Assembly (NCBI RefSeq): GCF_006716745.1
Contig: NZ_VFPP01000001.1
Span: forward strand, 8,381,386 to 8,445,385
DNA: 64,000 nucleotides
From: Saccharothrix saharensis
Lineage (GTDB): Bacteria; Actinomycetota; Actinomycetes; Mycobacteriales; Pseudonocardiaceae
Direction: 5' to 3'
This document shows positions 4,432 to 28,000 of the stretch, piece after piece. Under the pieces are notes generated by a model that ran no database searches, was not told the DNA's origin, and worked only from the letters and a program-made list of their open reading frames with translations. How positions within the stretch are numbered: position 1 is the stretch's first letter; each line of letters begins with the position of its first letter. The position numbers were made by a program, and so were the translations under genes.

Positions 4432-7400
4432 CAGTACTGCACCTCCTGGCTGCGGCGACGGATGGTCGTGACCTCGTCGCGCTGGTTGCCCGTCGGACCG
4501 TGGTAGTTGAGCGCGAAGGACTGCTGGGCGTAGCCGCCGATCAGGTGCGACGGCTTGATCATCAACCGGGTGAGCGCGTTGTGGATGCCGCCGCGCTTGC
4601 CGGTCGCCTCGGTCCGCGGCACGCCGACCGCCTTGTCCTGCGCGTGGTACATGAACACCGTGCCCTCGGGCATCCGGTGGGACACGATCGCCCGCGCCAC
4701 CACGATCCCGTTGCGGTTGACCGCCTCGATCCAGTCGTTGTCCTCGACCCCGATCTTCGCGGCGTCCCGGTCGGACATCCAGATGGCCTGCCCGCCGCGC
4801 GACAGGGTGAGCATGTGCAGGTTGTCCTGGTAGGCCGAGTGGATCGACCACTTCGAGTGCGGGGTCAGGTACCGCACGGTCACGCCGCCGTTCAGCGCGC
4901 CGACCGCCGGTTCGTCGAACAGTGCCGTCATGTCCAGCGGCGGCCGGAAGACCGGAAGCTGCTCGCCCAGCTCGAACATCCAGTCGTGGTCGAGGAAGAA
5001 GTGCTGCCGGCCGGTGAGCGTGTGCCACGGCTTGAGCCGCTCGGTGTTGATGGTGAACGGCGAGTACCGCCGGCCGCCGGTCTCGCTGCCCGACCACTCG
5101 GGCGAGGTGATCACCGGCACCGGTCGCGCCTGCGTGTCGGAGAACGTGATCCGCTTGCCCTCGCTCTCCGCCGCCAGGTCGGCCAGCCCGGTGCCGGTGC
5201 GGCGCTCCAGCGCGCGGAAGCCCTCCGTGGCCAGGCGGCCGTTGGTCGTGCCGGACAGGGCCAGGATCGCCTCCGCGGCGTGGGTGTCCTTGGCCAGCGA
5301 CGGCCGCCCGGCCGCGACACCGGACGCGACCGTGCCGTTCGCGCCCTTGAGGTACTCGACCTCCTGGTCGGGGTGCACGGTGACGCCCTTGGTGGTCAGC
5401 CCGACCTGTTCGACCAGCGGGCCGAGGGCGGCCATCTTGTCAGCGACCGCCGGGTAGTCCCGCTCCACGACCACCAGCCGGGGCATGGTCTTGCCGGGGA
5501 TCGGCTCGCACTCGCCGGCCTTCCAGTCCAGCACCCGTCCGCCCGGTTGGGCGGTGGCGTCGGCGGTGTCGTGGGTGAGCGCGACGGCCACGACGTCCTT
5601 GCGCTTGCCCAGGTGCTTCTCCGCCAGCCACGAGAAGCCGCGGGCGATGCGGTGGAACGCCTCGAAGTCGGTCTTGGTCTCCCACGGCGGCGAGATCGCG
5701 GGCGAGAACGCGTGCACGTAGGGGTGCATGTCGGTGGAGGACAGGTCGTGCTTCTCGTACCACGTCGCCGCGGGCAGCACGACGTCGGAGAACAGCGTGG
5801 TCGACGTCATCCGGAAGTCCAGCGACAGCAGCAGGTCCAGCTTGCCGACCGGCGCCTCGTCGCGCCAGGTCACCTCCTGCGGCCGCACGCCGTCGGCGTC
5901 CTTGGCGCGCAGGTTGGTGTCGGTGCCGAGCAGGTGCTTGAGGAAGTACTCGTTGCCCTTGGCCGACGAGCCCAGCAGGTTCGCCCGCCACACGGTGAGC
6001 ACGCGCGGGAAGTTCTCCGGGGCGTCGGGGTCCTCGCAGGCGAACCGCAGGTGCCCGGACTTGAGCCCGTCCACCACGTGGTCGGCGGCGGTCTTGCCCA
6101 GCCGTTCCGCCTCGTCGACCAGGTCGAGCGGGTTGCGGTTGAACGTCGGGTAGCTCGGCATCCACCCGAGCCGGGACGCGAGCGCGATGTTGTCGGCCGC
6201 GGTGCGCCCGGCGAACCGGCCCGTGGCCAGCGGCGAGGACATGACCTCCGCGGTGAACGGGTCGTAGCGCCACTGGTCGGTGGCCAGGTACCAGAAGATC
6301 GTGCCCTGCATCTGGCGCGGCGGGCGCTGCCAGTCCAGCCCGAACGCCAGCGTGGACCACCCGGTGATCGGGCGGCACTTCTCCTGGCCGACGTAGTGCG
6401 CCCAACCGCCGCCGTTCACGCCCTGGCAGCCGGTGAGCATGGTCAGCGCCAGGAACGAGCGGTAGATCTGGTCGGAGTGGAACCAGTGGTTGGTGCCCGC
6501 GCCCATGAGGATCATGGACCGGCCCTTGGAGCGCTCGGCGTTGTCGGCGAACTCCCGGCCGATCCGCTCGGCCGCGGCGGCGGGCACGCCCGTGATCGCC
6601 TCCTGCCAGGCGGGGGTGTAGGGCTGGGAGGCGTCGTCGTAGCCGGTCGGCCACTCGCCGGGCAGGCCGTCACGCCCCACGCCGTACTGGGCCAGCAGCA
6701 GGTCGAACACGGTGGTCACCCGCCGGCCGGCGACGATCCGCGTCGGCACGCCCCGGCGCTGCACGCCCGGCTCGGCGGTGTCGAACCGGGGCAGCGCCAC
6801 GGTGACCGGCTCGCCGCCGTGCGCCGACAGCAGCGGGTCGACGTCGCCGAGGTCGAGGTTCCAGTTGCCCTGGCCCGAGTCGGTGAACCGGTGCCCGAGC
6901 GACCCCGGCGGCACCACGGGCTCGCCGTGCGCGTCCAGCAGGACCGTCTTGGACTCCGCGCCCTCGCCGGTGTCGCCGAGGTCGGCGGCGGTGAGGAACT
7001 TGCCCGGCACGTGGCCGTCCTCGGTCTCGGTCAGCGTGACCAGGAACGGCAGGTCGGTGTAGCGCTTGACGTAGTCGGTGAAGTACGGGGTGGTCCGCTC
7101 GACGAAGAACTCCCGGAGGATCACGTGCCCCATAGCCATGGCCAGCGCGGCGTCCGTGCCGGGGCGCGCGGGCAGCCACTCGTCGGCGAACTTGGTGTTG
7201 TCGGCGTAGTCGGGCGACACCACGACGACCTTCTGACCGCGGTACCGCGCCTCGGTCATGTAGTGCGCGTCGGGGGTGCGGGTGACCGGGACGTTGGAGC
7301 CCCACATGATCAGGTACCCGGCGTCGAACCAGTCCGCGGACTCCGGCACGTCGGTCTGGTCGCCGAACACCTGCGGGCTCGCCACCGGCAGGTCGGCGTA

Positions 7401-8117
7401 CCAGTCGTAGAAGCTGAGCATGGAGCCGCCGACCAGCGACACGAACCGCGCGCCCGCCGCGTGGCTGACCATTGACATCGCCGGGATCGGCGAGAAGCCC
7501 GCGACCCGGTCCGGGCCGTGGACCTTGATCGTGTGCACGTGCGCGGCGGCGACCATCTCGGCCGCCTCCCACCACTCGGCGCGCACGAACCCGCCCTTGC
7601 CGCGCTCCGCCTTGTAGCGGCGGGACTTCTCCGGGTCCTCGACGATGTCCGCCCAGGCGAGCACGGGGTCCTTCAGCCGCTCTTTGGCCTCGCGGTACAG
7701 CTCCAGCAGCACGCCGCGCACGTAGGGGTAGCGCACCCGCGCGGGGGAGTAGGTGTACCAGGAGAAGGACGCGCCACGCGGGCAGCCGCGCGGCTCGTAC
7801 TCGGGCTTGTCCGGGCCGATCGACGGGTAGTCGGTCTGCTGCGCCTCCCAGGTGATCACGCCGTCCTTGACGTAGACCTTCCACGAGCACGACCCCGTGC
7901 AGTTCACGCCGTGGGTCGAGCGCACCACCTTGTCGTAGGCCCACCGGTCCCGGTAGAAGACGTCGGCGCCTCGGCCGCCGATCTGGTGCAAGGTGCGCCC
8001 GTCCACCGAGGTCTCGCCCCGCTGGAAGTGCCTGGCCAGGCGCAGCAGCGAGTCGCCGACCCCCGGATCTTCCCGCGCACCGTCCGGACGAACGCTGCCG
8101 GCAGAGAATTTCGACAC
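4431..8117 (-). CDS. narG: Respiratory nitrate reductase alpha subunit (molybdopterin)
   Basis: Catalytic subunit reducing nitrate to nitrite on the cytoplasmic side of the membrane. It is about 1228 residues, the usual size. The N-terminal 4Fe-4S site is present as HGVNCTGSCSW plus the later GCPRGASFSW, with His as the unusual first ligand. The molybdenum-site region reads DWYADLPVASPQVFGDQTD. No twin-arginine signal is seen, as expected for a cytoplasm-facing NarG. The GTG at 8117 is preferred because GGAGGTGATC sits at 8121-8130, 8 nt upstream; the further GTG at 8126 lies inside that ribosome site. It is first in narGHJI; no narK transporter or narXL pair is seen in the window. Confidence 0.96.
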   Translation of the reverse strand: MSKFSAGSVRPDGAREDPGVGDSLLRLARHFQRGETSVDGRTLHQIGGRGADVFYRDRWAYDKVVRSTHGVNCTGSCSWKVYVKDGVITWEAQQTDYPSIGPDKPEYEPRGCPRGASFSWYTYSPARVRYPYVRGVLLELYREAKERLKDPVLAWADIVEDPEKSRRYKAERGKGGFVRAEWWEAAEMVAAAHVHTIKVHGPDRVAGFSPIPAMSMVSHAAGARFVSLVGGSMLSFYDWYADLPVASPQVFGDQTDVPESADWFDAGYLIMWGSNVPVTRTPDAHYMTEARYRGQKVVVVSPDYADNTKFADEWLPARPGTDAALAMAMGHVILREFFVERTTPYFTDYVKRYTDLPFLVTLTETEDGHVPGKFLTAADLGDTGEGAESKTVLLDAHGEPVVPPGSLGHRFTDSGQGNWNLDLGDVDPLLSAHGGEPVTVALPRFDTAEPGVQRRGVPTRIVAGRRVTTVFDLLLAQYGVGRDGLPGEWPTGYDDASQPYTPAWQEAITGVPAAAAERIGREFADNAERSKGRSMILMGAGTNHWFHSDQIYRSFLALTMLTGCQGVNGGGWAHYVGQEKCRPITGWSTLAFGLDWQRPPRQMQGTIFWYLATDQWRYDPFTAEVMSSPLATGRFAGRTAADNIALASRLGWMPSYPTFNRNPLDLVDEAERLGKTAADHVVDGLKSGHLRFACEDPDAPENFPRVLTVWRANLLGSSAKGNEYFLKHLLGTDTNLRAKDADGVRPQEVTWRDEAPVGKLDLLLSLDFRMTSTTLFSDVVLPAATWYEKHDLSSTDMHPYVHAFSPAISPPWETKTDFEAFHRIARGFSWLAEKHLGKRKDVVAVALTHDTADATAQPGGRVLDWKAGECEPIPGKTMPRLVVVERDYPAVADKMAALGPLVEQVGLTTKGVTVHPDQEVEYLKGANGTVASGVAAGRPSLAKDTHAAEAILALSGTTNGRLATEGFRALERRTGTGLADLAAESEGKRITFSDTQARPVPVITSPEWSGSETGGRRYSPFTINTERLKPWHTLTGRQHFFLDHDWMFELGEQLPVFRPPLDMTALFDEPAVGALNGGVTVRYLTPHSKWSIHSAYQDNLHMLTLSRGGQAIWMSDRDAAKIGVEDNDWIEAVNRNGIVVARAIVSHRMPEGTVFMYHAQDKAVGVPRTEATGKRGGIHNALTRLMIKPSHLIGGYAQQSFALNYHGPTGNQRDEVTTIRRRSQEVQY

Positions 8118-8130
8118 GGCGATCACCTCC
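8118..8130 (-). promoter_or_regulatory. Strong ribosome binding site deciding the narG start
   Basis: On the minus strand GGAGGTGATC matches the 16S rRNA tail almost fully and is followed after 3 nt by GTG. It rules out the GTG at 8126 as the start because that codon is part of the site. Confidence 0.7.
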
Positions 8131-8905
8131 GAAGCAAATAGTGAATCGCTAAATCGACAGCCGTCGTCATCGACCCTGCCGGGCCACCATAGGGGGCCGG
8201 GGTGGCGCCCACCAAGAACGGATTCCGCTTCGCACGCTTTCCGTGTCGAGGCGGTGAGTCGGACGTAACGTCGTGTTCACGGACCTTCCTTCGGTGCGCC
8301 GGAACCTGTTCCGTCGGTATAGCGCTGAACTGCTGCGATGAGGGTTCGTGTGGCCGATCGGTGTCGCGCGTGACCGGAAGTGCCGCGCGGGCGACACGTA
8401 TCTTTAACACCCGGGTCACGCCGTCCGGGGCAGTTGGTGGGTTCACCACCGCCGCGTAGGGATAGGAAGCGGGTATTCCGGACGCGTGAATTTCCCGGTG
8501 GTGAACGGCCGGCCGTAATGCCGGTACGCGGTCCGCCGCGCCGGAGTGCCGAAGGCGTCGTCGCGATTGATCGGGACCGCCGGTGTCGAATGGGTGCGGC
8601 ACACTGCGGCGACCAGGTCCGGCCGCGCGCGGTGGATCACGCCCGACGCCGCTTCGGGCGGCACCTTCGGGTCCGGGCCGATCCGCACGTCCGGCGAGGG
8701 GTGGACGCGGGTCGCGCACCGGGCCGCGCGGAACGCGTGTCCGGCGTCTCGCGCGCGGATCCTGCCGTGGTCACGCAACGATGAGGCGCAGGCCGCCAAG
8801 CCCATCGGGAGCCCCTTCTTCGACTTTCCGGCACCGTAACAAGACGTGGACACCTGGTCACGCCTCGCGACCGCCGGGCGGACCTGCTCCGACGGCCGTG
8901 CCGGA
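8131..8905. other. Leader region of the nar operon up to the transposon insertion
   Basis: Some 775 bp with no convincing gene on either strand: open frames exist but show no family similarity, no good ribosome site, and composition like non-coding GC-rich DNA. The AT-richer stretch 8130-8160 just upstream of narG probably holds the nar promoter. The last five bases, CCGGA, are the left copy of a target duplication. Confidence 0.5.
8901..8905. repeat. Left target-site duplication, CCGGA
   Basis: CCGGA directly precedes the left transposon end and recurs directly after the right end at 17743-17747. Confidence 0.85.
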
Positions 8906-8950
8906 TGTGACTACAGGCCATAGTTGTCACTTACAAGCGATAGTTGTCAC
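8906..8950 (+). repeat. Left end of the Tn7-like transposon with two end repeats
   Basis: Two 18-bp direct repeats lie here: ACAGGCCATAGTTGTCAC at 8913-8930 and ACAAGCGATAGTTGTCAC at 8933-8950. They match, in inverted orientation, the four units of the right end and are the likely transposase binding sites. Confidence 0.85.
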
Positions 8951-9302
8951 TAAGATCGTTGTCTTGGCACCATCGGTGTGACTCCCAGCCATAGATGGCG
9001 GATCCCAGTTCACTCTGGCGGCTGATGGCTGCGGGGCGACGGATGTGGCATCTGAGGTGGGTAGCTGGTGGTGGTGTCCGTCGCCCTGGAGCCTCAGGGT
9101 TCGGCGACCGAGCAGGCAGGCGGTGGTCGGGCTGACACCGCTGATGCGGGCAATTCCATCGTCAGCAGCCGCCTGCCGGTAGGGCGGAAGTCTGGGAACT
9201 GTCCGCAGCTGTAGGTCCGTCATTGTGCGGAGTGGGTTGGTGCGGTGCGGTGCAACGCTGAGATCTGCCAGTCGTCGGACCGGATCAGGGAGGTGTCTTC
9301 CG

Positions 9303-11564
9303 GTGGTGACGCCTGAGGAGGAAAAGCCCAACGATTCCGACACCAAGCCCGCAAACGCAGTTGGCCCCTGTGCGCGCAATACGGCGTCCGGCGTCGTGGG
9401 TGGGGTGGTACAGGCTGGTGCGGTGCACGGTGACGTGCACCTGCACGCGGTACCGCCGCCGCCCATGCCGGTGGTGCCGCGTCAACTGCCTGCCGCGCCG
9501 GGGCTGTTCGCGGGTCGGGCGGCGGAGCTGGTCGGGTTGGATCGCGTCCTGATCCCTGTCACACCGGATGGCTCGGACACGGCCGGACGAGGACGAGCCC
9601 GTGCCGACCTCCCCGCCGACCTACCTGCCGAGGGTGCGACGGCGGTGATCTCGGCGATCGGCGGGGCCGGGGGGATCGGCAAGACCTGGCTCGCGTTGGC
9701 GTGGGCGCGCCGCCACATGGACCGGTTCCCCGACGGGCAACTGTTCGTGGATTTGCACGGGTTCAGCCCCGCCGGGGAGCCGACTGCGTCTGCGGTGGCG
9801 GTGCGCGGATTCCTCGATGCTCTGGGCGTCGACCCCGGCCGGATCCCTACCGACTTGGACGCGCAGGCCGCGTTGTACCGGAGTTTGATTTCGGGCAGGC
9901 GGATGCTGGTCGTCTTGGACAACGCCGCCACGAGTGAGCAGGTCATCCCGCTGCTGCCCGGCAGCGCCACTTGTACCGTGCTGATCACCGGCCGTCACCG
10001 GCTGGCCTCACTGATCGACCGGCACGGCGCCCGTCATGTGACCCTGGGCGTCCTCACCCGCGATGAGGCCCGCGCCCTGCTGACCGCACGCCTCGGTTCT
10101 GACCTCGTCGCCGCCGAGCCCGACGCCATCGACGAGCTGGTCGACCTGTGCGGGGGCCACCCACTGGCTCTGTCGATCACCGCCCGCAACGCCGCCACCC
10201 GCCCCGACATTCCGCTCGCGGGGGTGGCAACCGAGCTGCGCGAGCTGGGCCTGGAGATGCTTGACCACGACACCGACCCCGCCGCCAGCCTGCCCACCGT
10301 GCTGTCCTGGTCGCTGCACCGGCTCACCGGCGAACAGCGCGCCCTGTTCGGGCTGATGGGCATCGCCCCCGGCCCCGACACCACCCTGCCCGCCGTGGCC
10401 GCTCTCATCGGCACAGCCCCGTCCCGCGTACGTAGAGCGCTGTCGGTGCTGGATGAGGCGTCCCTGCTCGAACGGCGACCACACGGCCGGTTTGCGATGC
10501 ACGACCTGGTCCGCGACTACGCAGCCACCACCGCCCACGACCTGCCCGACGGCGTGCGGGAGATGGCACTGGTCCGGGTGGTGGACTTCTATCTGCACAC
10601 TGCGCTCGCCGCCGATCGCCTCCTGAACCCTCCTCGCCCACTTCTACGACTCGACCCGCCCGCGCCCGGCGTCCACTCCCATCCGCTGCCCGATGCCGCG
10701 GCCGCGACGGCCTGGCTGGAAACCGAACACGCCACCCTGCTCGCCACCCAGCGCGCCGCAGTCGCCCTCGACTGCCATCCCGTCACCTGGCACCTTGCCT
10801 GGGCACTGGAAACGTTTCACCACCGGCGAGGGCACTGGCGCGACGCGATCACCGTGTGGCGGGCCGCGCTGGACGCCGCCTCGCACCTACCCGACCCGGC
10901 CACCAGCATCCGTGCCCATCGGTTCCTTGGCCACGCCTGCGCCCAACTGGGCCTGCACGAGGAGGCCACCCGGAACCTGGACCAGGCCCTCCACCTGGCC
11001 GTGCACCACGACAACCCCACAGAACAGGCACACACCCACCAGGTGCTCGCCGTCGCCTGGGCACGACAGGATGAATACCGGCGGGCTTCGGTCCACGCCC
11101 GACACGCACTCGACCTCTACCGCACCCTCGACCAGCCTGTGCGGGAAGCCGCCGCGCTCAACCAGGTGGGCTGGTACGCCGCGCGTTTAGGCAACTTCGA
11201 CACCGCCCACGACCACTGCCTCGCCGCCCTCATCCTGCACCGACACCACCACCACCCCAACGGCGCGGCGCAGACTCTGGGCAACCTGGGGTACATCGCG
11301 CACAAAACCGGCCGGTACCACCAGGCTCTCGAGTACTACCGCGAGTCCGTCGACCTCCTCCGTCGGAGCGGCGACACTTTCCACGAGGCGCTGGCCCACG
11401 ATTGGACGGGGCAGACGCATGCCGCCCTCGGACAACATGATCAGGCTTACGAGGCGTGGCGGGAGGCGCTGTACCTGTACCAGCAACAAGGCCGCGACAC
11501 CGACGCCCAACGGGTCCAACGGCAACTCGACAACCTGACCGACCTCGCCCAGGGCAGGACCTGA
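9303..11564 (+). CDS. NLR-like STAND ATPase: amyloid-type motif, NB-ARC, TPR
   Basis: A 753-residue signalling ATPase of the NB-ARC/STAND class. The GTG at 9303 is chosen because AGGGAGG lies 9 nt upstream. Near residues 25-45 the segment VVGGVVQAGAVHGDVHLHA matches the Gln-Ala-Gly/His repeat pattern of bacterial amyloid signalling (BASS/RHIM-like) motifs. The nucleotide domain follows, with Walker A GGAGGIGKT, Walker B MLVVLDNA, a GLPL-like HPLALS block and a MHD-like FAMHDLVRDYA. The C-terminal 300 residues are TPR-like helices. It lacks the SARP DNA-binding domain of AfsR. As sole intact cargo of the nested element it may act as a sensor in conflict or phage defence; the ligand and effector are unknown. 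Confidence 0.85.
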   Translation: MVTPEEEKPNDSDTKPANAVGPCARNTASGVVGGVVQAGAVHGDVHLHAVPPPPMPVVPRQLPAAPGLFAGRAAELVGLDRVLIPVTPDGSDTAGRGRARADLPADLPAEGATAVISAIGGAGGIGKTWLALAWARRHMDRFPDGQLFVDLHGFSPAGEPTASAVAVRGFLDALGVDPGRIPTDLDAQAALYRSLISGRRMLVVLDNAATSEQVIPLLPGSATCTVLITGRHRLASLIDRHGARHVTLGVLTRDEARALLTARLGSDLVAAEPDAIDELVDLCGGHPLALSITARNAATRPDIPLAGVATELRELGLEMLDHDTDPAASLPTVLSWSLHRLTGEQRALFGLMGIAPGPDTTLPAVAALIGTAPSRVRRALSVLDEASLLERRPHGRFAMHDLVRDYAATTAHDLPDGVREMALVRVVDFYLHTALAADRLLNPPRPLLRLDPPAPGVHSHPLPDAAAATAWLETEHATLLATQRAAVALDCHPVTWHLAWALETFHHRRGHWRDAITVWRAALDAASHLPDPATSIRAHRFLGHACAQLGLHEEATRNLDQALHLAVHHDNPTEQAHTHQVLAVAWARQDEYRRASVHARHALDLYRTLDQPVREAAALNQVGWYAARLGNFDTAHDHCLAALILHRHHHHPNGAAQTLGNLGYIAHKTGRYHQALEYYRESVDLLRRSGDTFHEALAHDWTGQTHAALGQHDQAYEAWREALYLYQQQGRDTDAQRVQRQLDNLTDLAQGRT

Positions 11565-11654
11565 TCGCCGAACCAGTTCGTGCTCAACCCACGTAGGCGC
11601 CCCCCGCTTCGCCATCTCGGCCGGGACCGCTGTCACTCCCGCCGAGCCGCCCCA

Positions 11655-11753
11655 CGCCAGCTAACCCTGGGAAATTCGCCGGCTACCGCTGGGAGCGCCG
11701 CACTATGTACAGTTCCCTCGCCGCAAAGTCGCCATCTACGGCTGGGAGTCACA
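11655..11753. repeat. Right end repeat array of the nested element
   Basis: Three 18-bp units of the form CGCC-N6-8-CTGGGA: 11655-11672, 11677-11694 and 11730-11747. The last is part of the terminal inverted repeat. They mirror the two units at 8983-9021. Confidence 0.8.
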
Positions 11754-11758
11754 ATAGG

Positions 11759-12238
11759 TCGCGACTGCGGTGGTGGAGTGGGTGCGGTGCCGAGACAGCG
11801 GCATGTCTCGACCTCCGGGGCGCAGGCCTGGTGACCAGAGCTTGGAGGCCGGCGGTGTGGGCCGGGCCGGTACTCCGAGAGGAACAGGAGGCCGACGTCC
11901 GGCCGGCGATCAGGCGGGGCGGCAGGTGCGCGGTGTCGGTGCCCCAGGTGATCCACATAGTGGTGCCGCCCTTGGCGAAGATCTTCGCCTGCTTGTTCGG
12001 CAGGTCCAGGTCCTCAACGTTGAGCGCGAGCACAGCAGAGGCGCGGGAGGCGGACTCGTAGAGCATCCGCCACAGCGTCTTCTCCCGCAGGAGCACGTCG
12101 CGCCGTCGGCACAGTCGGTCGATCCGAGACCGCGACACCGCCTTGGTGTCGTCCTGGTTCTCCTGCCGTCGCTCGACAGCGTCCGGCACTGCGGGCGCAG
12201 TCCAGTGCTGTTTGCTGGCGCATCAGGTGAGCCAGATG
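11759..12238 (-). pseudogene. Broken tyrosine recombinase/integrase gene
   Basis: The minus strand encodes LREKTLWRMLYESASRASAV, then LALNVEDLDLPNKQAKIFAKGG, the first-Arg block of the tyrosine recombinase catalytic domain. It continues TTMWITWGTDTAHL and, after a frameshift near 11915, LFLSEYRPGPHRR in another frame. The His-x-x-Arg and Tyr boxes are missing; the C-terminal side stops at the nested element end and the N-terminal side is cut by the IS3-family insertion at 12239. It was probably original cargo or an accessory recombinase of the outer transposon. Confidence 0.75.
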
Positions 12239-13453
12239 TGAGGTCGTCCCCGGAGACCGGACACCGGGTTTTGTGCCACGAGGGCGAGGTCTTGACGATA
12301 GTCGACGCGGGCTTCATGCGGGGTGCGGTAGCCCAGTGTCGAATGTAGACGGTTGTGGTTGTAGTAGCCGAGGTAGGCGAAGACGTCGCGTCGGGCGTCC
12401 TCGCGGGTGTCCCAGACGGTGGTGCCGATCTCGGTCTTGAGGGTGGCGAAGGACGACTCGGCGACCGCATTGTCGACGCACGATCCGGTTCTTCCGGCCG
12501 ACGGGCGGATGCCGTGACCGGCGAGCGTGGGACGGAACAGTCCGGAGCTGTATTGCGACCTGCGATCGGCGTGAAGAACCGCATCATCACTGGTCAGGCC
12601 GCGTCGGACGGCGAGGTCGAGGGCGTCGCTGACCACTTCGGCACGCATGTGCCCGGCCATCGCGTGCCCGATGACCTCGCGGTTGTGCAGGTCGATCACC
12701 GTGGCCAGGTAGAGCCACCCCTCCCGCGTGGGCAGATATGTGATGTCCCCGACCGGTCGTCGGCCGCGTGCTGGGCCGGTGAAGTCCCGACCGATCAGGT
12801 CCGGCACCGGCGCCGCGACGATATCGGGCCTGGTCAATGACCTGCGTCGTCTGCGGGTGATACCGACGATCCCGCACTCGCGCATGACGCGCCCGACCCG
12901 CTTGTGGTTCACCCGACGGCCCCGGCGGCGCAGCGCGACGACGATCCGCGGACGCCCGTAGGCGCCCCGGTGACCGGCGTGGACCTCGCCGATCTCGGCG
13001 GCCAGACGCTCGTCGTCCTGGGCCCGCTCCATTCTGGTCGGGGCGGCGGCGAGCGATTCGTAGAACCTGGGGACGTCGCACGCCCAGGACCCTGCACAGC
13101 CGGGCGACGCCGAAGGCGGCGCGGTGTTCGGCGATGAACCGGTAGCTGCGGGTCAACGACCCGTCTCCGTCGCAAAATAGGCGGCGGCCTTGCGGAGGAT
13201 GTCCTTCTCCAGCTCCAGTTCGGCCACCCGCGTGCGCAGTTCCCGCAGCTCCTGACGTCCTCGGCCGACACGCCACCTGCCGGCGGAACCGCCTGGGCCT
13301 GTTCGGCGGTGCGGACCCAGTTGCGCAGGGTCTCGTGGTTCACGCCCAGCTCGCGGGCGACCTGCCGCAAGGCCGGTCCCAGGAGCGGGCCAGCGCGACG
13401 GCGTCCTTGCGGAACTGCTCGGGGTACTTCGACTTGCCTGACACGGGGAACAT
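12223..13453 (-). pseudogene. IS3-family transposase, OrfA and OrfB frameshifted
   Basis: OrfA would start at the ATG at 13453 (MFPVSGKSKYPEQFRKDAVA) with helix-turn-helix RELGVNHETLRNWV and leucine zipper ELRTRVAELELEKDILRK. At least two frameshifts split it (near 13380 and 13260). OrfB keeps a long intact part from 13032 to 12223 with rve-type DDE residues: D in VGDITYLPT, D in LHADRRSQYSS and E in DNAVAESSFATLK. Its N-terminus is in another frame (breaks near 13040-13070). The OrfB stop lies 14 bp outside the inferred left end of the element. Non-functional as it stands. Confidence 0.85.
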
Positions 13454-13508
13454 CCTTCCCCAGACCGCTGTCTGGGATCAGGGTGTTCGTTTCAAAGGGA
13501 CAACCTCA
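12239..13508. mobile_element. IS3-family insertion sequence, degenerate, 1.27 kb
   Basis: Both ends begin TGAGGTYGTCCC when read inward and agree again at ACACC further in (19 of 27 bases). The trinucleotide ATG flanks both sides (12236-12238 and 13509-13511), a 3-bp duplication typical of the family. The two-frame transposase inside is frameshifted. The insertion interrupts the recombinase relic region. Confidence 0.8.
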
Positions 13509-13748
13509 ATGTTCCCATCTCCCGCGGTCTTGTCGGAGCTCCAAGGGCACCAGAAGGCCGCCATCAGTGGATACGTTTTCAGTCGCCGTCAAGGCGGGTC
13601 ATCATCGAATGCGCCAGTCTTGTTGATCATGGGCCTCGAAGCTCCGATGCCGACAGGCCTCACTTACTCCCAACGCCTTGGATCGCGAGCGTCGTTCAGC
13701 CATTCGTACCTATTGCAATGATGCCGTGTCGCGTATCATCCACTAAAT
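13509..13748. other. Gap between the IS end and the RiPP cassette
   Basis: No gene or clear signal. Base composition shifts here from very GC-rich to moderate, marking the start of the differently derived RiPP cassette. Confidence 0.4.
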
Positions 13749-13763
13749 ATGATAGGGGGTGTC

Positions 13764-13922
13764 GTGGAAAATAAGGCCCAAATAGAAGACAGGATTCGAC
13801 GCGCTCGCCAAATATTAGGCGCGGAGCAAGAAAGAGGGCGTGAAGACGGACCGATTGCCGTGTTTTCCAGTTTTGCTTCCGGTCCCGAGCAAGCGCCTCG
13901 GAAAGCAGAGAAACGGGAGTAG
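13764..13922 (+). CDS. Putative RiPP precursor peptide
   Basis: A 52-codon gene starting at GTG 13764 (AGGGGG just upstream; an in-frame ATG at 13749 would add five residues but has no ribosome site). The peptide is highly charged with a leader-like helical half (ENKAQIEDRIRRARQILGAE) and a core-like AVFSSFASG near residue 36-44. F-S-S and F-A-S are tandem aromatic-x-x triplets of the kind cross-linked by radical SAM three-residue cyclophane enzymes. A charged tail (PRKAEKRE) follows. It ends 3 bp before the radical SAM gene. Being a precursor is inferred from size, position and the FxS motifs. Confidence 0.7.
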   Translation: MENKAQIEDRIRRARQILGAEQERGREDGPIAVFSSFASGPEQAPRKAEKRE

Positions 13923-13925
13923 TCG

Positions 13926-15056
13926 ATGTCTATGTCGGGTTTAGCGGCAGCCTCCATTGTGCCGACACGACTTCTTGTTCTGCAACCCACCGGTTTTTGC
14001 AACATCAATTGTCGCTATTGCTATCTGGCGGACCGTCAGGCGCGACGCAAGATGCGTACAAGTACGGTCCGCGCCCTTGGTAGATTTCTTGGCACGATTC
14101 AGGTCGCCGAGAAACCGTTAACAGTGTCGTGGCACGCCGGAGAACCTCTCACCGCTGGGCGCGATTTCTACGAGAGCGCTTTCAGTATCCTGGCCGAGTC
14201 GCCCGACTGTCCTCCTCTGCGGCACACTATTCAGACAAACGCGACGTTGATCAACAACCAATGGTGTGAACTGTTCACGCGATGGGGTGTACACGTAAGT
14301 GTTAGCCTCGACGGACCCGCCCACATTCATGATAGAGAAAGGCGCGATACCGGGAACCGTGGCACCTACGCTCGTGCACTAGCCGGGTTTGAATCTTTAT
14401 TGAAGCATGACATCACAGTCTCGACTATTGGCGTCCTCACGTACTACGCCATGCAGTTTCCCGACGAAATATTCAGGTTTTGGAGAAGTATTGGAGTGCG
14501 TTCCGTTGCGATCATCGCGGAAGAAGCAGACGGGGCAAATCGAGTTAGTAGCTTGTCCCGTGTCGACGCGGGATCGCGATACTATGGCTTTCTTCGACGG
14601 CTGCTGGAGTTGCGGGATCAGTATCCGGAAATCCACATTCGCGAACTTGAGTTTGTAGAGCAAGCGCTACGCTGTGCCCCCGGCTTGGAGGTCGCCAGCA
14701 TGGAGAACACTCCGGGCGCAATTATCAGTGTCGACACCGAAGGGAACATTTCAACCTTTTCTCCCGAATTGCTAGACCAGGGTCATCAATCCTACGGAAA
14801 TTTCACCTGGGGCAATGTAAATAATCACACATGGGACGAGGTGGTAGGACATGAAAAGTTCATAGGTGTAGCGAAGGATATCCGACTCGGCGTTGATCGG
14901 TGTCGCGCCGAGTGCGGTTTCTACGTCGTCTGCGGCGGAGGGGCGCCCAGTAATAAAATCAGTGAGAACGGGACTTTTATCTCCACTGACACCGTTGCTT
15001 GCAGGCTTCGGATAATGACTGCAACGGAAGCCGTTCTAGATCACTATGGACTATAG
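13926..15056 (+). CDS. Radical SAM/SPASM peptide maturase
   Basis: A 376-residue radical SAM enzyme with the CxxxCxxC cluster at C25, C29 and C32 (GFCNINCRYCYL), followed by VSWHAGEPL and IQTNATLI blocks of the TIM barrel. A C-terminal SPASM-type region has Cys residues in CRAECGFYVVCGGGAPSNK and a final C near VAC. The CGGGAPSNK-ENG pattern is typical of cyclophane-forming peptide maturases (the Fxs/Grr/Amc-like group). The upstream 52-residue peptide is its likely substrate, cross-linking Phe to a nearby residue. Moderate GC and non-host codon use indicate recent arrival as transposon cargo. Confidence 0.88.
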   Translation: MSMSGLAAASIVPTRLLVLQPTGFCNINCRYCYLADRQARRKMRTSTVRALGRFLGTIQVAEKPLTVSWHAGEPLTAGRDFYESAFSILAESPDCPPLRHTIQTNATLINNQWCELFTRWGVHVSVSLDGPAHIHDRERRDTGNRGTYARALAGFESLLKHDITVSTIGVLTYYAMQFPDEIFRFWRSIGVRSVAIIAEEADGANRVSSLSRVDAGSRYYGFLRRLLELRDQYPEIHIRELEFVEQALRCAPGLEVASMENTPGAIISVDTEGNISTFSPELLDQGHQSYGNFTWGNVNNHTWDEVVGHEKFIGVAKDIRLGVDRCRAECGFYVVCGGGAPSNKISENGTFISTDTVACRLRIMTATEAVLDHYGL

Positions 15057-15073
15057 TTGACGGTAGTTTAATC

Positions 15074-15787
15074 CTAAGGTAGTGGAGCCGCGTGCAGGCA
15101 TCGAATTATGCGTTCGTGCGTGTCGCCAACGATGTCGTTGGCGCGAATGCGCGCATCAAAACTCCAGATGACAGCAAGAGCTTTCTTGCTGAAGGCGGCG
15201 AACTCTCGGACCTCCTTCGTAGAATTAGTTGGGGCGAGCGGAGCTCCCGGGCCGACGGCACTGAGCGCGAAATCGTCATCCGGTTTCAATCCTGCGGAGT
15301 TCAATGCGTCAAATACCTCTTGAAAAGTGACCCAACGTTCGTGGGATGCAAGCGAATTCCGGTCGTCGTCACTGTGGAGAATCAATCGATAGTGAATTTG
15401 CTCGACGACACAAGAGCCGGGGCCACCGTTGTTTACGAAGACGGTCCATGCAGCCTTCGAGCCCATCATGGCTCCTTCGCCAAGAGTGTTTCCGGACCAG
15501 CCAAGACTAGGACGAACCGACCTGGCGAACTGACCACGCGCAAGCACCAGGCTTCCGACCAAACCGGTCAGCGCGGCCGCCGCTGGTACACCCAGAAGGG
15601 TGATCCGCCAAGGCAAACCTGCTTGCGAGGAGGCGTCGACATTAACTCTAGTTATCTCCCAGCACAGATCGCCGAGCAGAACCGCGAAGACGGAGATTGG
15701 CAGCACAACGAAAGTCCTGCTTCGACGCACCACTCGCTGGTGACTCTCCGCAAACCAGCGACTTGTCTCCTCGACACGCTCTTCCAT
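15074..15787 (-). CDS. Two-helix membrane protein of unknown function
   Basis: 237 residues starting at ATG 15787. Two hydrophobic helices at about 27-46 (FVVLPISVFAVLLGDL) and 64-85 (ITLLGVPAAAALTGLVGSLV) are followed by a 140-residue soluble domain containing GGPGSCVVEQIHYRL. The gene is convergent with the radical SAM gene, 17 bp away, and shares its lower GC. No family was recognised. It could be an immunity or export partner of the RiPP, but its opposite orientation makes this only a guess. Confidence 0.7.
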   Translation of the reverse strand: MEERVEETSRWFAESHQRVVRRSRTFVVLPISVFAVLLGDLCWEITRVNVDASSQAGLPWRITLLGVPAAAALTGLVGSLVLARGQFARSVRPSLGWSGNTLGEGAMMGSKAAWTVFVNNGGPGSCVVEQIHYRLILHSDDDRNSLASHERWVTFQEVFDALNSAGLKPDDDFALSAVGPGAPLAPTNSTKEVREFAAFSKKALAVIWSFDARIRANDIVGDTHERIIRCLHAAPLP

Positions 15788-16044
15788 GCCTGCAACTTAC
15801 CGCAGTGTGCCCTAGGGCACAGATGGCCTAAGCACGTGGTCTACAAGTCAAGTAGAGCCGATCAGACAGCCCTGAGACCGCTCGTTCTGGGCGGCGGGCG
15901 AGTGGAAACTGTCGATCAGCCCAAGAACACCGACCATGTGGACAACGGCTCCTGCTGGCTCAAGGAGGCGTGATCGCCTGGCGCGGTTACAACGAAAGGA
16001 TTAGTACGACCGTGGTCACCCGCCCGGGCGCAACGCCGGGTGCA
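15788..16044. other. Spacer between the membrane protein and transposase remnants
   Basis: No gene supported; probably promoter DNA for the 15787 gene plus junction sequence. Confidence 0.35.
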
Positions 16045-16375
16045 TCACGCCATTTCCGGTGACACCCTGTAGTTGGCGTCGCGAAGACGGTCGACGGCAC
16101 TGGTGGGTGTGGTAGTCAGCGAGGTTAGTGCGTGCAGAAGATGGCGCAGGTGCACGCCGGGGTTGTTCGCGTCGGGACCGTTGCGGACGTAGTGCATCGC
16201 GATGCGAAGCAGGCCGTTGAACTTGTCGTCGGCGGGGGTGTCCCATCGGGTGTTGGCGGGGCCATGAGGTAGTCGCCGTGGGTCACGTCGCGGCCCAGAC
16301 CAGGACGGTCGCGATCCGGTGTTTGTTCTCGCCCCAGTCGGTGATGGCATCGGACGGACCCCAACGCTTCTTCTC
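16045..16375 (-). pseudogene. Unrecognised gene fragment beside tnsB remnant
   Basis: The minus strand encodes a coherent segment ending at 16045: FNGLLRIAMHYVRNGPDAN, then NPGVHLRHLLHALTSL and a final DANYRVSPEMA. Upstream, in another frame, KRWGPSDAITDWGENKHRIA looks coding and seems to belong with it. The pieces need at least one frame change. The family was not recognised; it does not look like the C-terminus of TnsB. Confidence 0.45.
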
Positions 16376-17030
16376 GGCCGCGCAGATGCTCGAACAGCAG
16401 GCTGCGGATCGCGCCGAAGGCCCGCTCGACGGCGTGCTTGTCGGTCGGCCGCAGCACCCGCGCTGGCACGATGATCGCCCCCAGCACCCGCTGGACCTCG
16501 ACCAGGTGGTGGTTGCGGTAGACCGAGCCGTAGTCGGTGATGATCGTCCCCGGGGTGAAGAACGGCAAACCGGCGACCCGGTGTCCGGCGAACTCCGCGA
16601 CCATTGCGGCGGGCAGCCCTGGGTAGGGCCACTCCAGCTCCTCACCCCAGTCAGGGCGCATCGGCAGCGGCATCGTGATGTCCGCAGCAGCATCGCGACG
16701 TCGATCGCGCTGTCGGACACCAGCGTGAGCCGGAACGCGCTCAGCGAGTGCGTGTAGACGTCAAACGCGAGCGTCAGGTGCACCGAGACCGGGTCGCCGA
16801 ACACAGTCTCACGCACCTTGACCGGCAGGATGATCGTGTCAGCGCGACGACCTGACCGGGCCGGTGCACCACCACGTGCTTACCGCTGGTGGCCGGCGCG
16901 GCCGAGCGGAGATAGCGCTGCCGGCCGCCCCCCGAACCGAACCACTCCCGCCAGACCAGCCGCAGCGTCTCGTAGCTCGGAATCGCCGCGACCGCGTCCG
17001 GGCCGTGCTGCTCGCGGACGAACTCGCGCC
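16376..17030 (-). pseudogene. tnsB-like DDE transposase, truncated and frameshifted
   Basis: Three frames together give a TnsB/TniA-type integrase core. The first Asp is in VVALDTIILPVKVRETVFG, then FDVYTHSLSAFRLTL; the second Asp is in IITDYGSVYRNHHLVEVQ; and the Glu is in PTDKHAVERAFGAIRSLL. Frameshifts are needed near 16835 and 16680. The N-terminal DNA-binding part is lost at the fusion with tnsA and the C-terminal part is missing. In life it would cut the 3' ends and join them to the target, binding the 18-bp end repeats. Confidence 0.85.
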
Positions 17031-17488
17031 GCCGGACGCACGTCGATCAGCCACCGCCCGGTCCGGGTGTCGGCCAGGAAGTCCGGCACATGCTCCCGCT
17101 TCCCATCCTGCACCCGGAACCGCAATCGGAACGGTTGGGGAATCACCTCCACCACGGAGGCGGCGAAGTCCTACACCAACAGCAGGCGGGCCTCCTCCAT
17201 CGACTCGCACCCGTGGAGTCGATCCGTGCTCACCATGTACTGCAACCCCGGCCGGTGCCGCTGCCGACGCGCCCACGAGGACCGTCTGACGGGCTCGCAC
17301 CCCGTCACCGACATCGACGCGAGAGCCCGGACCGGCGCGGTGACCTCGTCGCCCGCGTACCGCCACGTGGCCGACCACCGCTGGGCCCAGTCCAACCCCG
17401 AGTCCAGCACTCCGTGGGCCTGTGCCGAGCCTGTGCCGAGCCGGTGCTGTGCTCGGCCAGCTCGTCTTAGCCACAGCGGTCCCACCAC
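17031..17488 (-). pseudogene. tnsA-like endonuclease, amber stop and C-terminal deletion
   Basis: A TnsA-type 5'-strand endonuclease: basic RRQRHRPGLQYMVSTDRL, then CESMEEARLLLV with the catalytic Glu, DFAASVVEVIPQPFRL, then KREHVPDFLADTRTG with the catalytic Asp, and WLIDVRP where the Lys/Arg site sits. An in-frame TAG at 17171-17173 replaces the codon before DFAAS. Immediately after DVRP the sequence jumps into the middle of tnsB, so one deletion removed the end of tnsA and the start of tnsB. Confidence 0.82.
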
Positions 17489-17610
17489 AGTGCCGTACCG
17501 GACTGACCGACCCGACCGGAACCAGTCGAGTTCACTACAACATCCAAGTCAACAGCGCGCCTTGCCCGGTGCACCGACGCGCGACGACCGCCGCACATTA
17601 ACCCGATCTG

Positions 17611-17742
17611 GTGATAAGTAAGGCCTGTGTGAGAACCAAGTGACAAGTAGGACCTGTACCTGGTGACAAGTACCGCCGGAACCTACGAACGGAACGCCCG
17701 ATCGCGATGGCTCGCTGGTGACAACTGCCGCCTGTAGTCACA
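17611..17742 (-). repeat. Right end of the Tn7-like transposon with four end repeats
   Basis: Units GTGATAAGTAAGGCCTGT (17611-17628), GTGACAAGTAGGACCTGT (17640-17657), GTGACAAGTACCGCC (17663-17677) and the terminal GTGACAACTGCCGCCTGTAG (from 17718). Together with the two left units they form the asymmetric 2+4 arrangement of Tn7-like ends. Confidence 0.85.
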
Positions 17743-24803: not shown

Positions 24804-25031
24804 GCGTGCACGCTCCGGGAGTGGTTTCGGGGCCGGCCGGGGAGTGGGGGCGCGAGCAGCGAATCGTCGCTTCACAGGCGGGTTCCGGAAGTCGCACCGG
24901 AGTCCCGCGGCCGGCCGGCGAACTCTAGCAACCACGTGGCACGCTGCGCCCCGACATTAAGGCGTAGCGCTGGGTGCTGTCCGACCGACACAGTGACTGC
25001 GAGGGGCGCCGCGTGCGAGGGGGGACCGGGG

Positions 25032-28000
25032 TTGGAGTGGGATTTCTTCCTGGCGCACGCCGGCGCGGACAGCCCCGCCGCGGAACGGCTGCGGTCGTTG
25101 CTGGAGCCGCACGCCACCGTCTTCGAGGACTCGATGCTGCGCGCGGGCGAGGAGTGGGACGTCGTCCTCGACCGGCACCTGCGCGCGTCGACGATCACCG
25201 TCGTGCTCGTGTCGCGGCGCACCGAACTGGCCGTCTACCTGCGCGAGGAGATCGCCCGCGCGATCGCGCTGGCCCGGTCGGACGGTCGGCGGCGGGTGGT
25301 GCCGCTGGTGCTGGAGCAGGTCGACGCGCTGCCGTACGGGCTGGAGCTGCGCACGCCCGTGCGGCTGGGTGACGGCCTGGACCTGGCGGGCGCGGCGGAC
25401 GTGCTGCTGGAGGCGCTGCGGGACTCCCGCCTGCCGCGCAGCGAAGGGCCGCACGTCGTCGCCGGGCAGCTCGGGCCGCTGCTGCGGCAGCTCGACCTGG
25501 ACGCCCTGAGCGGGGTCCGGTCGGATGTGCTCGCGGCGGCGCTGGCCGAGGTGGGCGAGTCCGACGCGCTGTGGCTGCACCTGGCCCGGCGCGGTCTCGA
25601 CGCGCGCGTGCTGCTGCCGTCCCTGCCCGGTCACGACGAGGCGGCGGCCCGGTGGGCGTTCGGCACCGAGGCCGTGCCGGGCGCGCGGGACCTGCCCGCC
25701 GCCGTGCGCCGGCAGCTCGTGCGCCGGCTCGCCGACGAGCGCACCGACCTGGACGCGGCCTCGGTGCGGCTGCGGCGCGAGGTGCTGTCCGGCCGGGCGA
25801 GCACGCCGGACGCCCGCCGCCTGGCCTCCGCCGTCGTCGCCGCGCTGCCACCGCCGCGGTCGGCGTCCACCCAGGCGGTCCTGGCGTCGAGGGGCGGCAC
25901 CACCGACCTGCCCGTGGCGCTGGCGCCGCTGCACCGGACGGCCTTGGGCATGACGGCCCTGCCGCCGCGCGAGACGGCGCTGGTCGGCCGCACCGCGCTG
26001 GTGTCCGACCTCGTCGACCGCCTCGACGCCCGGCTCCTGCGCCGGGGCCGGGTCACGGCGCTGCTCACCGGCCGGCTCGGCGCGGGGGTCTCGGCGGTGG
26101 CCGTCGAGGCGGCGCACGTGCTGGCCGACCGGTTCCCCGGCGGTGTCCGGTACGTCGACCTGCACGGGCTCGACGACGCGAAGCGGGCGGCGGCGGACGT
26201 CGCCAGGCTGGTGTGCCACAGCCTCGGCGTGACGCCGCAGCCGGGGGCGGAGGCGGAGCACCTGAGAGCTGCGCTGGACGGCCGCCGCCTGCTGCTGGTG
26301 CTGGACAACGCGCTGGACGCCCGGCACGTCGCGCCCCTGGTGCCCGCACCGCCCGGCTGCGCGGTCGTCGTCACCTCCCGCAACCGGACCCAGTCCTACG
26401 CCGACGTGGTCGTGCACGTGCCGCCGCTGGACCGCTCGGCGTCGGTGGAGCTGCTGGCCGACGTGCGGCCCGGCGCGGGCACCGCGGCGTTGGACCGCAT
26501 CGCGGCGGCGTGCGCCGACCTGCCGATGGCGCTGCGGCTCATCGCGGCCTGGATGACCAACCACCCGGAGACCGGCGTCGACGGCGTGGCCCGCCTGCTG
26601 GCGCGGGAGCGGACCAGGCTCGCGTTCCTGGACGACGACGTGCTGCCGATGCGCCTGGCCATCGAGCTGAGCTACCGGCACCTCGACGACGACGGCCGCA
26701 CGGCGTTCCGGTACCTGCCCGCCGCGCCGGGCTCGGCCGCGACCGCCGAGGACCTCGGCCGCGGCCTGAACCGCGATCCCGACCTCACCCGGCTCACCCT
26801 CTACCGCCTCGTGGACCGCAGCGTGGCCGGGTACGAAGAGCCCACCGACCCGCCCGAGCCGGTGTTCCGCCTGTTCGAGCTGGTGCGCCTGTACGCCCGG
26901 GAGCGGTTGGCCGAGGAGGAGCCGCCCGAGGCCGTGGCCCGGTTCCGCCGGCGGCTGCTGACCAGGCTGCGCGACGACCTGCGGTCCGGCGCGGAACCCG
27001 ACCTCGCGCTGCGCCTGGACCCGACCCCGCTGGTGGCCGCGCGCGACCTGGCCGAGCGCGAGGAGTGGTTCGACCTGGCCGGTGACCTGACCGACGGCCT
27101 GCGCACCGTGCACGAGGCGGACTCCGACGACGAGTCCGCGCGCCGCGACCGTGAGCACGCGGCCCGGCTGCGCCACCGCGGCGGCAACGCCGAGGCGGCC
27201 GCCCGCGAGTACCTGGACCTGGCGCGCACCCTCGACGGCCCGCCCGCGGAGGACGCGTTCACCACCGCCGAGCGCATCGCGGCCGACGCCCGGCTCTGGG
27301 ACCTGGTCGGCCGGATCGCGCACGAGCTGGCCGCGCACCACGAGGCCCGGTCGGACCTGACCGCCGCGCTGGCGGCCGGCGACCGGTCGGTCACCGCGTT
27401 GCGCACGGTCCACCGCAACGCCACCGCGCTGCCGGTGGCGATCAACAACACCCGGCTCGCCATCCGCCTGGGCGACTTCGACGCCGCCCGGCGCTGGGTC
27501 GCGGTGGCCCACTCCCTGGCGGATGCCCGCACGCCGACGAGGCTGCGCGCCGACATCGCCTACGAGGAAGCACGGGCGTCGAGCGGTCCCGGCGCCCCGG
27601 CCCTCTGGCGCGCCGCCGCGGAGCTCTACGAACAGGACCGGAACTTCGGCAACGCCGGGCTGGCCGCGTTCTTCGGCGCGCGGGCCGCGCGTGCCCAAGG
27701 CTCCGACGCCGAGGCCGCCGAGCTGTTCCTGGCCGCCGCGCACCTGCACCGCGCGGCAGGCGACCACGACCGGGCGGTGTGGGCGATCGTGGAGCTGTCC
27801 GCCGCTCACGCCGAGGTCGGTCGGTACGAGCAGGCCAAGGACGTGCTGACCGGTGCGTGGGACCTGCACGAGGAGACCTGGGGTCATGGCGTGGCCGCCG
27901 AGGTGGACCTGCGCATCGCCGTGCTGGCCTACCTGATCGACGGCTCCCGGCCACCGCTGTCGCGGCGCGGGCTCGCGGTGGCCGACGACGACGACCGGGC

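Follow-up and report, generated by a model that had tools for sequence, protein, structure and literature searches.

Structure of the nested elements

The DNA analyzed here is a 64,000-nucleotide stretch of the Saccharothrix saharensis genome (the window), numbered from its first letter. It contains two elements with inverted ends, one lying inside the other (Table 1). The outer element is a decayed Tn7-like transposon. The inner element has no transposase gene and carries one gene, which encodes a STAND ATPase with NB-ARC and TPR domains. We conclude that the inner element is real: a nonautonomous Tn7-like cassette whose cargo is an AfsR-like STAND gene. It starts exactly 71 bp from the tip of the outer left end. 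This placement was absent from the original prediction for this DNA, and it is repeated in two other genera.

The inverted ends of the inner element (8977 to 9000 and 11730 to 11753) are complementary at 23 of 24 positions. They are the sole 24-nt inverted pair in the window that matches at 23/24 or better with a spacing of 1 to 6 kb, and no such pair arose in 20 dinucleotide shuffles of the window. In the organism's own genome (8.92 Mb), TGTGACTCCCAGCC has three matches with at most one mismatch, two of which are the inner ends; the reversed control has one. Both ends contain a CCCAG..TAG..GGCG repeat unit. It occurs twice on the left (8984 to 9000 and 9004 to 9020) and three times on the right, on the minus strand (11730 to 11746, 11677 to 11693, and 11655 to 11671). 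We scored the two 150-nt termini with a position weight matrix trained on seven sites, five from other genomes and the window's own two tip sites. Four sites scored at least 10, compared with a mean of 0.05 and a maximum of 1 in 300 shuffles. Two of these four are the tip sites used in training, and the second and third right repeats are independent of it. The second left repeat scored 9.5, just under the threshold. The TGT..ACA tips and the unequal repeat numbers are characteristic of ends of the TnsB type. The original prediction had described 24-bp inverted ends with 2+3 repeat arrays around a single gene and a 5-bp near-duplication. All of these features are borne out, with the flanks identical at four of five positions in the inner element and at five of five in the outer one.

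The combination of transposon ends and a passenger gene without a transposase corresponds to a mobile insertion cassette. Queries for tnsB, tnsC, and tniQ, taken from genomes G157 and G226, had no match inside 8977 to 11753; TnsA was not searched, and only one gene fits in this interval. Window matches to these queries were confined to 16377 to 17025, outside the inner element. The intact TnsB relatives of this outer remnant, in G157 and G226, come from two other genera. The inner and outer ends are related but form distinct subfamilies, as had been proposed.

Table 1. Coordinates of the two elements and their parts in the window
Feature	Position	Strand	Evidence and remarks
Inner transposase-less element, 2777 bp	8977..11753		24-bp inverted ends 23/24; flanks 4/5
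Inner left end, tip repeat and second repeat, CCCAG offsets 7 and 27	8977..9020	+	Two-repeat layout also in G152 (L114) and G015 (L044)
Inner right end, three repeats, CCCAG offsets 7, 60, and 82	11655..11753	-	Similar in G177 (L115; 7, 60, 89) and G006 (L041; second/third about 61/84)
Left 5-bp flank of inner element, ATCGG	8972..8976		4/5 identical to 11754-11758
Right 5-bp flank of inner element, ATAGG	11754..11758		4/5 identical to 8972-8976
Cargo gene, 753-aa STAND ATPase, NB-ARC and TPR, AfsR-like without SARP domain, N-terminal motif VVQAGAVHGDVHLH	9303..11564	+	Pfam; AfsR structures
Outer Tn7-like element, decayed, 8837 bp	8906..17742		Ends 22/25; duplication CCGGA/CCGGA 5/5
Outer left end, 71 bp from outer tip to inner tip; two outer repeats ending near 8951	8906..8976	+	71 bp also in G152 and G177
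Outer right end, four repeats	17608..17742	-	By eye
IS3-type transposase open reading frame within outer element	12223..13032	-	Pfam rve, HTH_21; IS3 name by eye
Radical SAM gene, outer-element cargo	13926..15056	+	PF04055, E 1e-15
tnsB remnant, three pieces, broken frames	16377..17025	-	63-87% identity to TnsB of G157 and G226
tnsA-like remnant, coordinates approximate	17018..17158	-	PF08722, E 0.0056, below curated cut-off

The inner end lies 71 bp from the outer left tip in three genera

The distance from the outer left tip to the inner end is exactly 71 bp in the window, in G152, and in G177, which represent three genera. To avoid selecting for this distance, we let the gap vary from 50 to 80 bp in a search of 353 genomes. 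The search returned three matches, all at 71 bp, and the control returned none. If the distance were free within 50 to 80 bp, the chance of two further agreements would be about 1 in 1000 by our arithmetic. The inner end next to the outer left end has the left-type spacing (7, 27) in the window and G152 and the right-type spacing (7, 60, 89) in G177. Because two orientations occur at one distance, insertion appears to have been repeated. The sequence from the second outer repeat to the insertion point has little in common among the nested loci. Outer elements without an inner one exist (L090 in G020, and G226), and the inner element therefore arrived second. The 71-bp placement suggests that the element is targeted at a set distance from the end of another transposon, with Tns proteins acting in trans. 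The new part of this result is the fixed position, not the payload.

The outer elements may themselves have a preferred site. By eye, the outer left ends of G157 (L244 to L246) and G177 (L115) adjoin a common flank, CTATGGACGCTTCGT... This flank, common to two genera, suggests that the outer family has a fixed attachment site. Also by eye, elements in two genera (L090, 1691 to 4762, and L113, 2936) adjoin similar downstream genes, and they perhaps occupy one attachment site.

Related ends in other genomes

Outer-type ends with at most three mismatches were found at 36 places in 23 of 390 Pseudonocardiaceae genomes, and the reversed control gave one place. Inner-type ends at the same threshold were found at 19 places in 17 of the 390 genomes, against 9 control places. 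Because of this control level, we accepted an inner-type end only if it had repeat-array support, which left the window, G152, G177, G015, and G006. The search for further copies that the original prediction had called for yielded a second two-ended copy in G152 and single ends in G177, G015, and G006. Single-end matches in G291, G315, G319, G063, G211, G072, G079, G196, G016, and G290 had one repeat only, and we set them aside as chance matches or other families. The inner-type ends of G005 and G020 (L117) are degenerate, and no partner end was found for them.

The affiliation of the ends comes from two operons. In G226, related end arrays and a perfect AGTGA duplication enclose tnsB, tnsC, and tniQ (TniQ, E 4e-19) within 6.6 kb, together with a TnsA-like frame recognized by eye. 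The layout in G157 is the same. Its Pfam matches to TniQ (E 7e-19) and TniB (E 1e-6) are above the cut-off, and those to rve, Mu C-terminal, and TnsA-like domains are below it. G157 has both ends but mismatched flanks (ACACC/GTGGC), possibly an effect of a second element directly alongside. Since related arrays enclose a tns operon in G226 and G157, the end family is, as judged from sequence, that of Tn7-like transposons. In G006, a TnsB fragment with 51% identity to the G157 TnsB lies 305 bp inside an inner-type end, which places the inner subfamily in the same transposase group. An intact tns operon thus occurs within the wider TGTGAC-end group in G226, and the exact inner subfamily has the G006 TnsB fragment only.

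In G015, the inner-type left end leads into what reads by eye as a piece of a Tn3-type transposase; next come a small gene and the first part of an NB-ARC gene, where the contig stops. The inner-type ends of G006 and G015 clearly adjoin a common flank. The resemblance is weak for G020, and an attachment flank common to all three was kept as a lead only.

An IS21 origin of the ends was suggested by istA/istB-like genes (by eye) beside the G152 inner-type end. We rejected it, since a separate tip, TGTCAGCGGCC (by eye), lies about 62 bp inside and related arrays enclose tnsB-tnsC-tniQ in G226 and G157. At this locus (L114, 12690 to 16768), the IS21-like element begins about 62 bp in from the inner right tip, in what appears to be the second repeat of that end. 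An IS3-like transposase lies farther inside, beyond it.

Other arrangements of ends were seen. In G158, outer-like ends lie by an nSTAND-type gene whose match is below the cut-off (L107, contig C102) and by a TPR gene (L106, contig C5). No second end was found for either, and both contigs end soon; the genes are perhaps more STAND-type cargo. In G148 (L223), a Tn7-like element at 6458 to 16956 has other ends and a GTCGG duplication, and 2.2 kb outside it, at 4208, there is an outer-type right end. Contig C47 of G016 (38000 to 97000; L217 to L219) has three TnsA-like matches within 20 kb and at least two tandem Tn7-like elements with a common flank, CCAAT.

The cargo gene belongs to a large chromosomal family

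The best start of the cargo gene is 9303, and 9225 is only the start of the longest open reading frame. The protein matches NB-ARC (E 9e-8) and TPR models above the Pfam cut-offs. A STAND NTPase joined to a repeat sensor domain is the NLR-type layout, and the NLR-like label of the original prediction fits it. The closest solved structures are those of AfsR, 8k60 (E 3e-60) and 8jke (E 2e-59), over residues 91 to 724. At E 0.001, Pfam lists no SARP/BTAD DNA-binding domain for the protein. The NCBIfam matches are to AfsR, HaaT, and FxSxx TPR proteins, all below the cut-off (for AfsR, 293 bits against a cut-off of 1430). The protein is probably a nucleotide-dependent sensor or switch, which may serve either defense or regulation.

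The N-terminal regions among relatives of the cargo protein are of the SARP type, of the nucleoside phosphorylase type, or short. Motifs of the VVQAGAVHGDVHLH type are candidate bacterial amyloid signaling (BASS) motifs. A narrow expression for this motif matched 23 of 100 anchorable relatives. According to one report (PMC12261475), there is homology between the PP motif and both RHIM and BASS 3.

The NB-ARC gene family is large and chromosomal. Genomes of the genus each have between 9 and at least 43 matches, the upper figure being also the number of candidates scored. We scanned 77 stretches around other family members for inner-type ends. These comprised 17 stretches plus 60 from the upper part of the list, with the three element-borne copies excluded and at least two loci present twice. 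There were no ends at 0 to 2 mismatches (control, 2) and 20 at 3 mismatches (control, 23). On this result, we rejected the idea that such ends are the usual home of the family's NLR genes. Because none of the 77 stretches has ends at 2 mismatches or fewer, the family does not seem to be resident in inner-type elements, and the cargo looks like a captured chromosomal member.

The three element-borne NB-ARC genes have three different N-terminal types and different nearest relatives. The window cargo protein has at most 73% identity among 120 listed homologues. The G020 protein is 85 to 87% identical to P0087, P0020, and P0019, all named Actinosynnema. The NB-ARC part from G015 is 81 to 89% identical to its 14 best matches, of which the named ones are mostly Amycolatopsis. 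Trees separate the three genes, with many weak supports. We rejected a single mobile NLR lineage, since the 120 listed homologues place the element-borne genes near different relatives. They look like separate captures from the large chromosomal family.

The original prediction saw the cargo as an NLR-type immune payload. Such a protein would sense phage and kill or arrest the cell in an abortive response, and the element would spread as a defense cassette. The NB-ARC and TPR layout fits this idea, as do the resemblance of the N-terminal motif to bacterial amyloid signaling motifs and the occurrence of other such ends near STAND/TPR genes (L107 of G158, an nSTAND_NTPase5 match below the cut-off, and L106, a TPR gene). 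In G015, moreover, a gene that is cyclase-like by eye, with no Pfam match, adjoins the NB-ARC gene. However, the closest solved relative is the regulator AfsR, every NCBIfam match falls below its cut-off, and PADLOC, consulted for a known defense family, returns a generic TPR model only. With 0 of 77 family stretches bearing the ends as well, the immune payload was not upheld; we regard an immune role as a guess, conceivable but rather doubtful.

Two more stretches of the window resemble this family. A large open reading frame at about 24957 to 28175 (plus strand) has, by eye, a TIR-like stretch and then an NB-ARC-like part, and the G020 NB-ARC protein matches positions 26064 to 26897 at 33%. 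The second stretch, at 46670 to 48721 (minus strand), is 37% identical to the G020 protein.

Small two-ended elements without tns genes

We scanned 59 stretches, with no control, for elements whose two ends match at 14/25 or better and whose flanks match at 4/5 or better; the flank match is thus a selection criterion and not independent proof. Nine elements passed this filter. G226 has the operon, the window outer element is decayed, and seven have no match in a search for TnsB, TnsC, and TniQ. The seven measure 213, 365, 682, 2030, 2777 (the window inner element), 3072, and 4079 bp. The 3072-bp element, from G020, has outer-type ends, and its sole gene encodes an NB-ARC/TPR protein with 68% identity to the window protein. 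The 2030-bp element has a response-regulator open reading frame. The 4079-bp element, from G152, has inner-type ends around istA/istB-like and IS3-like genes recognized by eye. Four elements without tns genes, namely the window inner element, the L040/L114 inner element, L090, and L093, each have a single mismatch between their 5-bp flanks. Perfect 5-bp flanks occur in the outer element, G226, L097, L101, and L105.

Tn7-like ends in Pseudonocardiaceae can therefore bound very small elements without tns genes (seven of the nine listed). A survey that takes the transposase as its starting point would miss them. The proposal that the inner element is a cargo module for transposition in trans gains from these seven elements, one of which, in G020, has only an NB-ARC/TPR gene. 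Movement in trans is the natural inference, and an autonomous inner-type element that might supply the transposase was not found.

Alternatively, the inner element could have begun as an autonomous Tn7-like transposon and, once inserted, have decayed through deletion of its tns genes, never having been mobilized in trans. The outer element, with its tnsA and tnsB remnants, has decayed in a comparable way, and the G006 inner-type element has only a TnsB fragment in the stretch examined. However, no remnant of tnsB, tnsC, or tniQ lies between the inner ends, and five of the small elements (213, 365, and 682 bp, 2.0 and 3.1 kb) look like unit cassettes. We consider this history unlikely, though conceivable for this copy, and favor a cassette moved in trans.

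Search for a mobilizing partner

The organism's own genome has no TnsA or TniQ match at E 0.001, and TnsB is present only as the decayed outer remnant; TnsC/TniB was not searched. Because TnsA and TniQ were not found, the cassette looks stranded there. The TniQ model (PF06527) matched none of six genomes (G000, G015, G020, G006, G152, and G177) and, of eight examined in all, matched G157 and G226; TnsC was not searched. The TnsA-like model PF08722 matched one of the six, G006. Since the genomes that hold the elements have no partner as far as searched, mobility in this S. saharensis strain probably needs an incoming element. Tn7-like operons of G016, G142, and G148 were considered as partners and rejected, as their best end pairs are of the TGTCCTGTC.. 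or TGTAGGGTC.. types and not inner-type. The same end-pair search found no end pairs for the operons of G006 (L220) and G087 (L222).

Discussion

Our reading is that the inner element is a nonautonomous Tn7-like cassette, moved in trans and placed at a fixed distance from the outer end. We give it a probability of roughly 0.7. In this scenario, TnsB of an autonomous relative, with TnsC and perhaps TnsA, would bind the inner ends in trans. A target selector of the TniQ/TnsD kind would bind the outer repeats, or TnsC would act with outer TnsB that is already bound. Either route would set insertion at a fixed distance from the outer end, about 25 bp past the second outer repeat. Insertion beside outer left ends would have happened more than once, because the inner end of G177 is right-type and those of the window and G152 are left-type.

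Several points weigh against this reading. There are only three nested cases, and complete nesting is visible in the window only. The outer right end was not found in the G152 and G177 stretches examined, where "outer" refers to the left end alone, and G177 has one recognizable inner end, its second not having been found. Inner-type ends also occur outside outer ends (G006, G015, and G020), and the outer end is thus not the sole target. Single inner-type end matches are only twofold above control. The classic hallmark is imperfect, with the duplication at only 4/5 in the window inner element, the G152 inner element, and G020. In the G152 inner element, the istA/istB-like and IS3-like genes recognized by eye are the only cargo that we could identify. 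A TnsB search, which scored few candidates per genome (seven), brought to light no autonomous element with ends of the inner type; full elements with the same ends plus tnsABC, which the original prediction had proposed to look for, likewise did not appear for the inner subfamily.

The nesting might also reflect one old event, after which an outer-plus-inner composite spread and diverged, with the 71 bp inherited and not targeted; the window and G152 do share a left-type inner end by similar outer ends, but this is improbable, as the G177 inner end is right-type beside an outer end from a different subfamily, the left flank of which is, by eye, like the one at the G157 element and unlike the one in the window, and as the G020 L090 element and the autonomous G226 element have no inner insertion. 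Fixed-distance placement in trans leads to a bolder proposal, namely that, for one Tn7-like lineage, the terminal repeats of a different Tn7-like transposon serve as the attachment site. The lineage's selector would read the outer left end and insert 71 bp from the tip in either orientation, and single-gene cassettes would exploit this address so that cargo accumulates. We advance this proposal tentatively, judging it a little short of an even bet.

Benler et al. 2021 (PMC8649781) cover Tn7-like cargo, nested elements, and an Actinobacteria-dominated clade, of which, by their account, no member had been experimentally characterized. Faure et al. 2023 (PMC10293859) cover target selectors, including homing 30 to 33 nt downstream of a tRNA site. 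In the literature covered, which leaves out most subscription papers, we found no description of a Tn7-like element that homes to the end of another transposon. Tn7-like elements are known for exact chromosomal or RNA-guided targeting. If true, the docking described here would add a transposon-on-transposon target class. Exact docking would also explain the growth of nested islands one gene at a time.

Comparison with known systems

Tn7-like elements generally have TGT...ACA ends, asymmetric repeat arrays, a 5-bp duplication, and insertion at a fixed distance from a recognized site. Tn7 inserts just downstream of glmS (PMC2918618). Its insertions have a single orientation. The inner element resembles Tn7 and Tn7-like elements (TnsABC with TniQ/TnsD) in the type of its ends, its arrays, and the fixed distance, and relatives with such ends carry tnsB, tnsC, tniQ, and a TnsA-like frame. 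Unlike Tn7, it has no tns genes, its apparent recognized site is the end of another transposon, and both orientations occur.

Mobile insertion cassettes, a term used for example in the title of PMC3913671, are a known class. They consist of transposon ends around a passenger gene, with no transposase, and are moved in trans; the known ones have ends of the IS type. The inner element likewise encloses a passenger gene without a transposase, but its ends are of the multisite TnsB type. The Tn5053/Tn402 res-site hunters and the tni-defective class 1 integrons are relatives of the Tn7 group that prefer sites in other mobile elements, and their defective members are helped in trans. Publications on these systems include PMC7765201 and PMC5460862. 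The inner element differs from them in its target, which is a Tn7-like transposon end and not a resolvase res site, and in its cargo of one STAND ATPase gene. The cargo protein, in turn, is like AfsR and other STAND ATPase-TPR proteins in that it matches continuously from NB-ARC to TPR. It is unlike AfsR in that it has, in place of a detected SARP DNA-binding domain, a short N-terminal motif.

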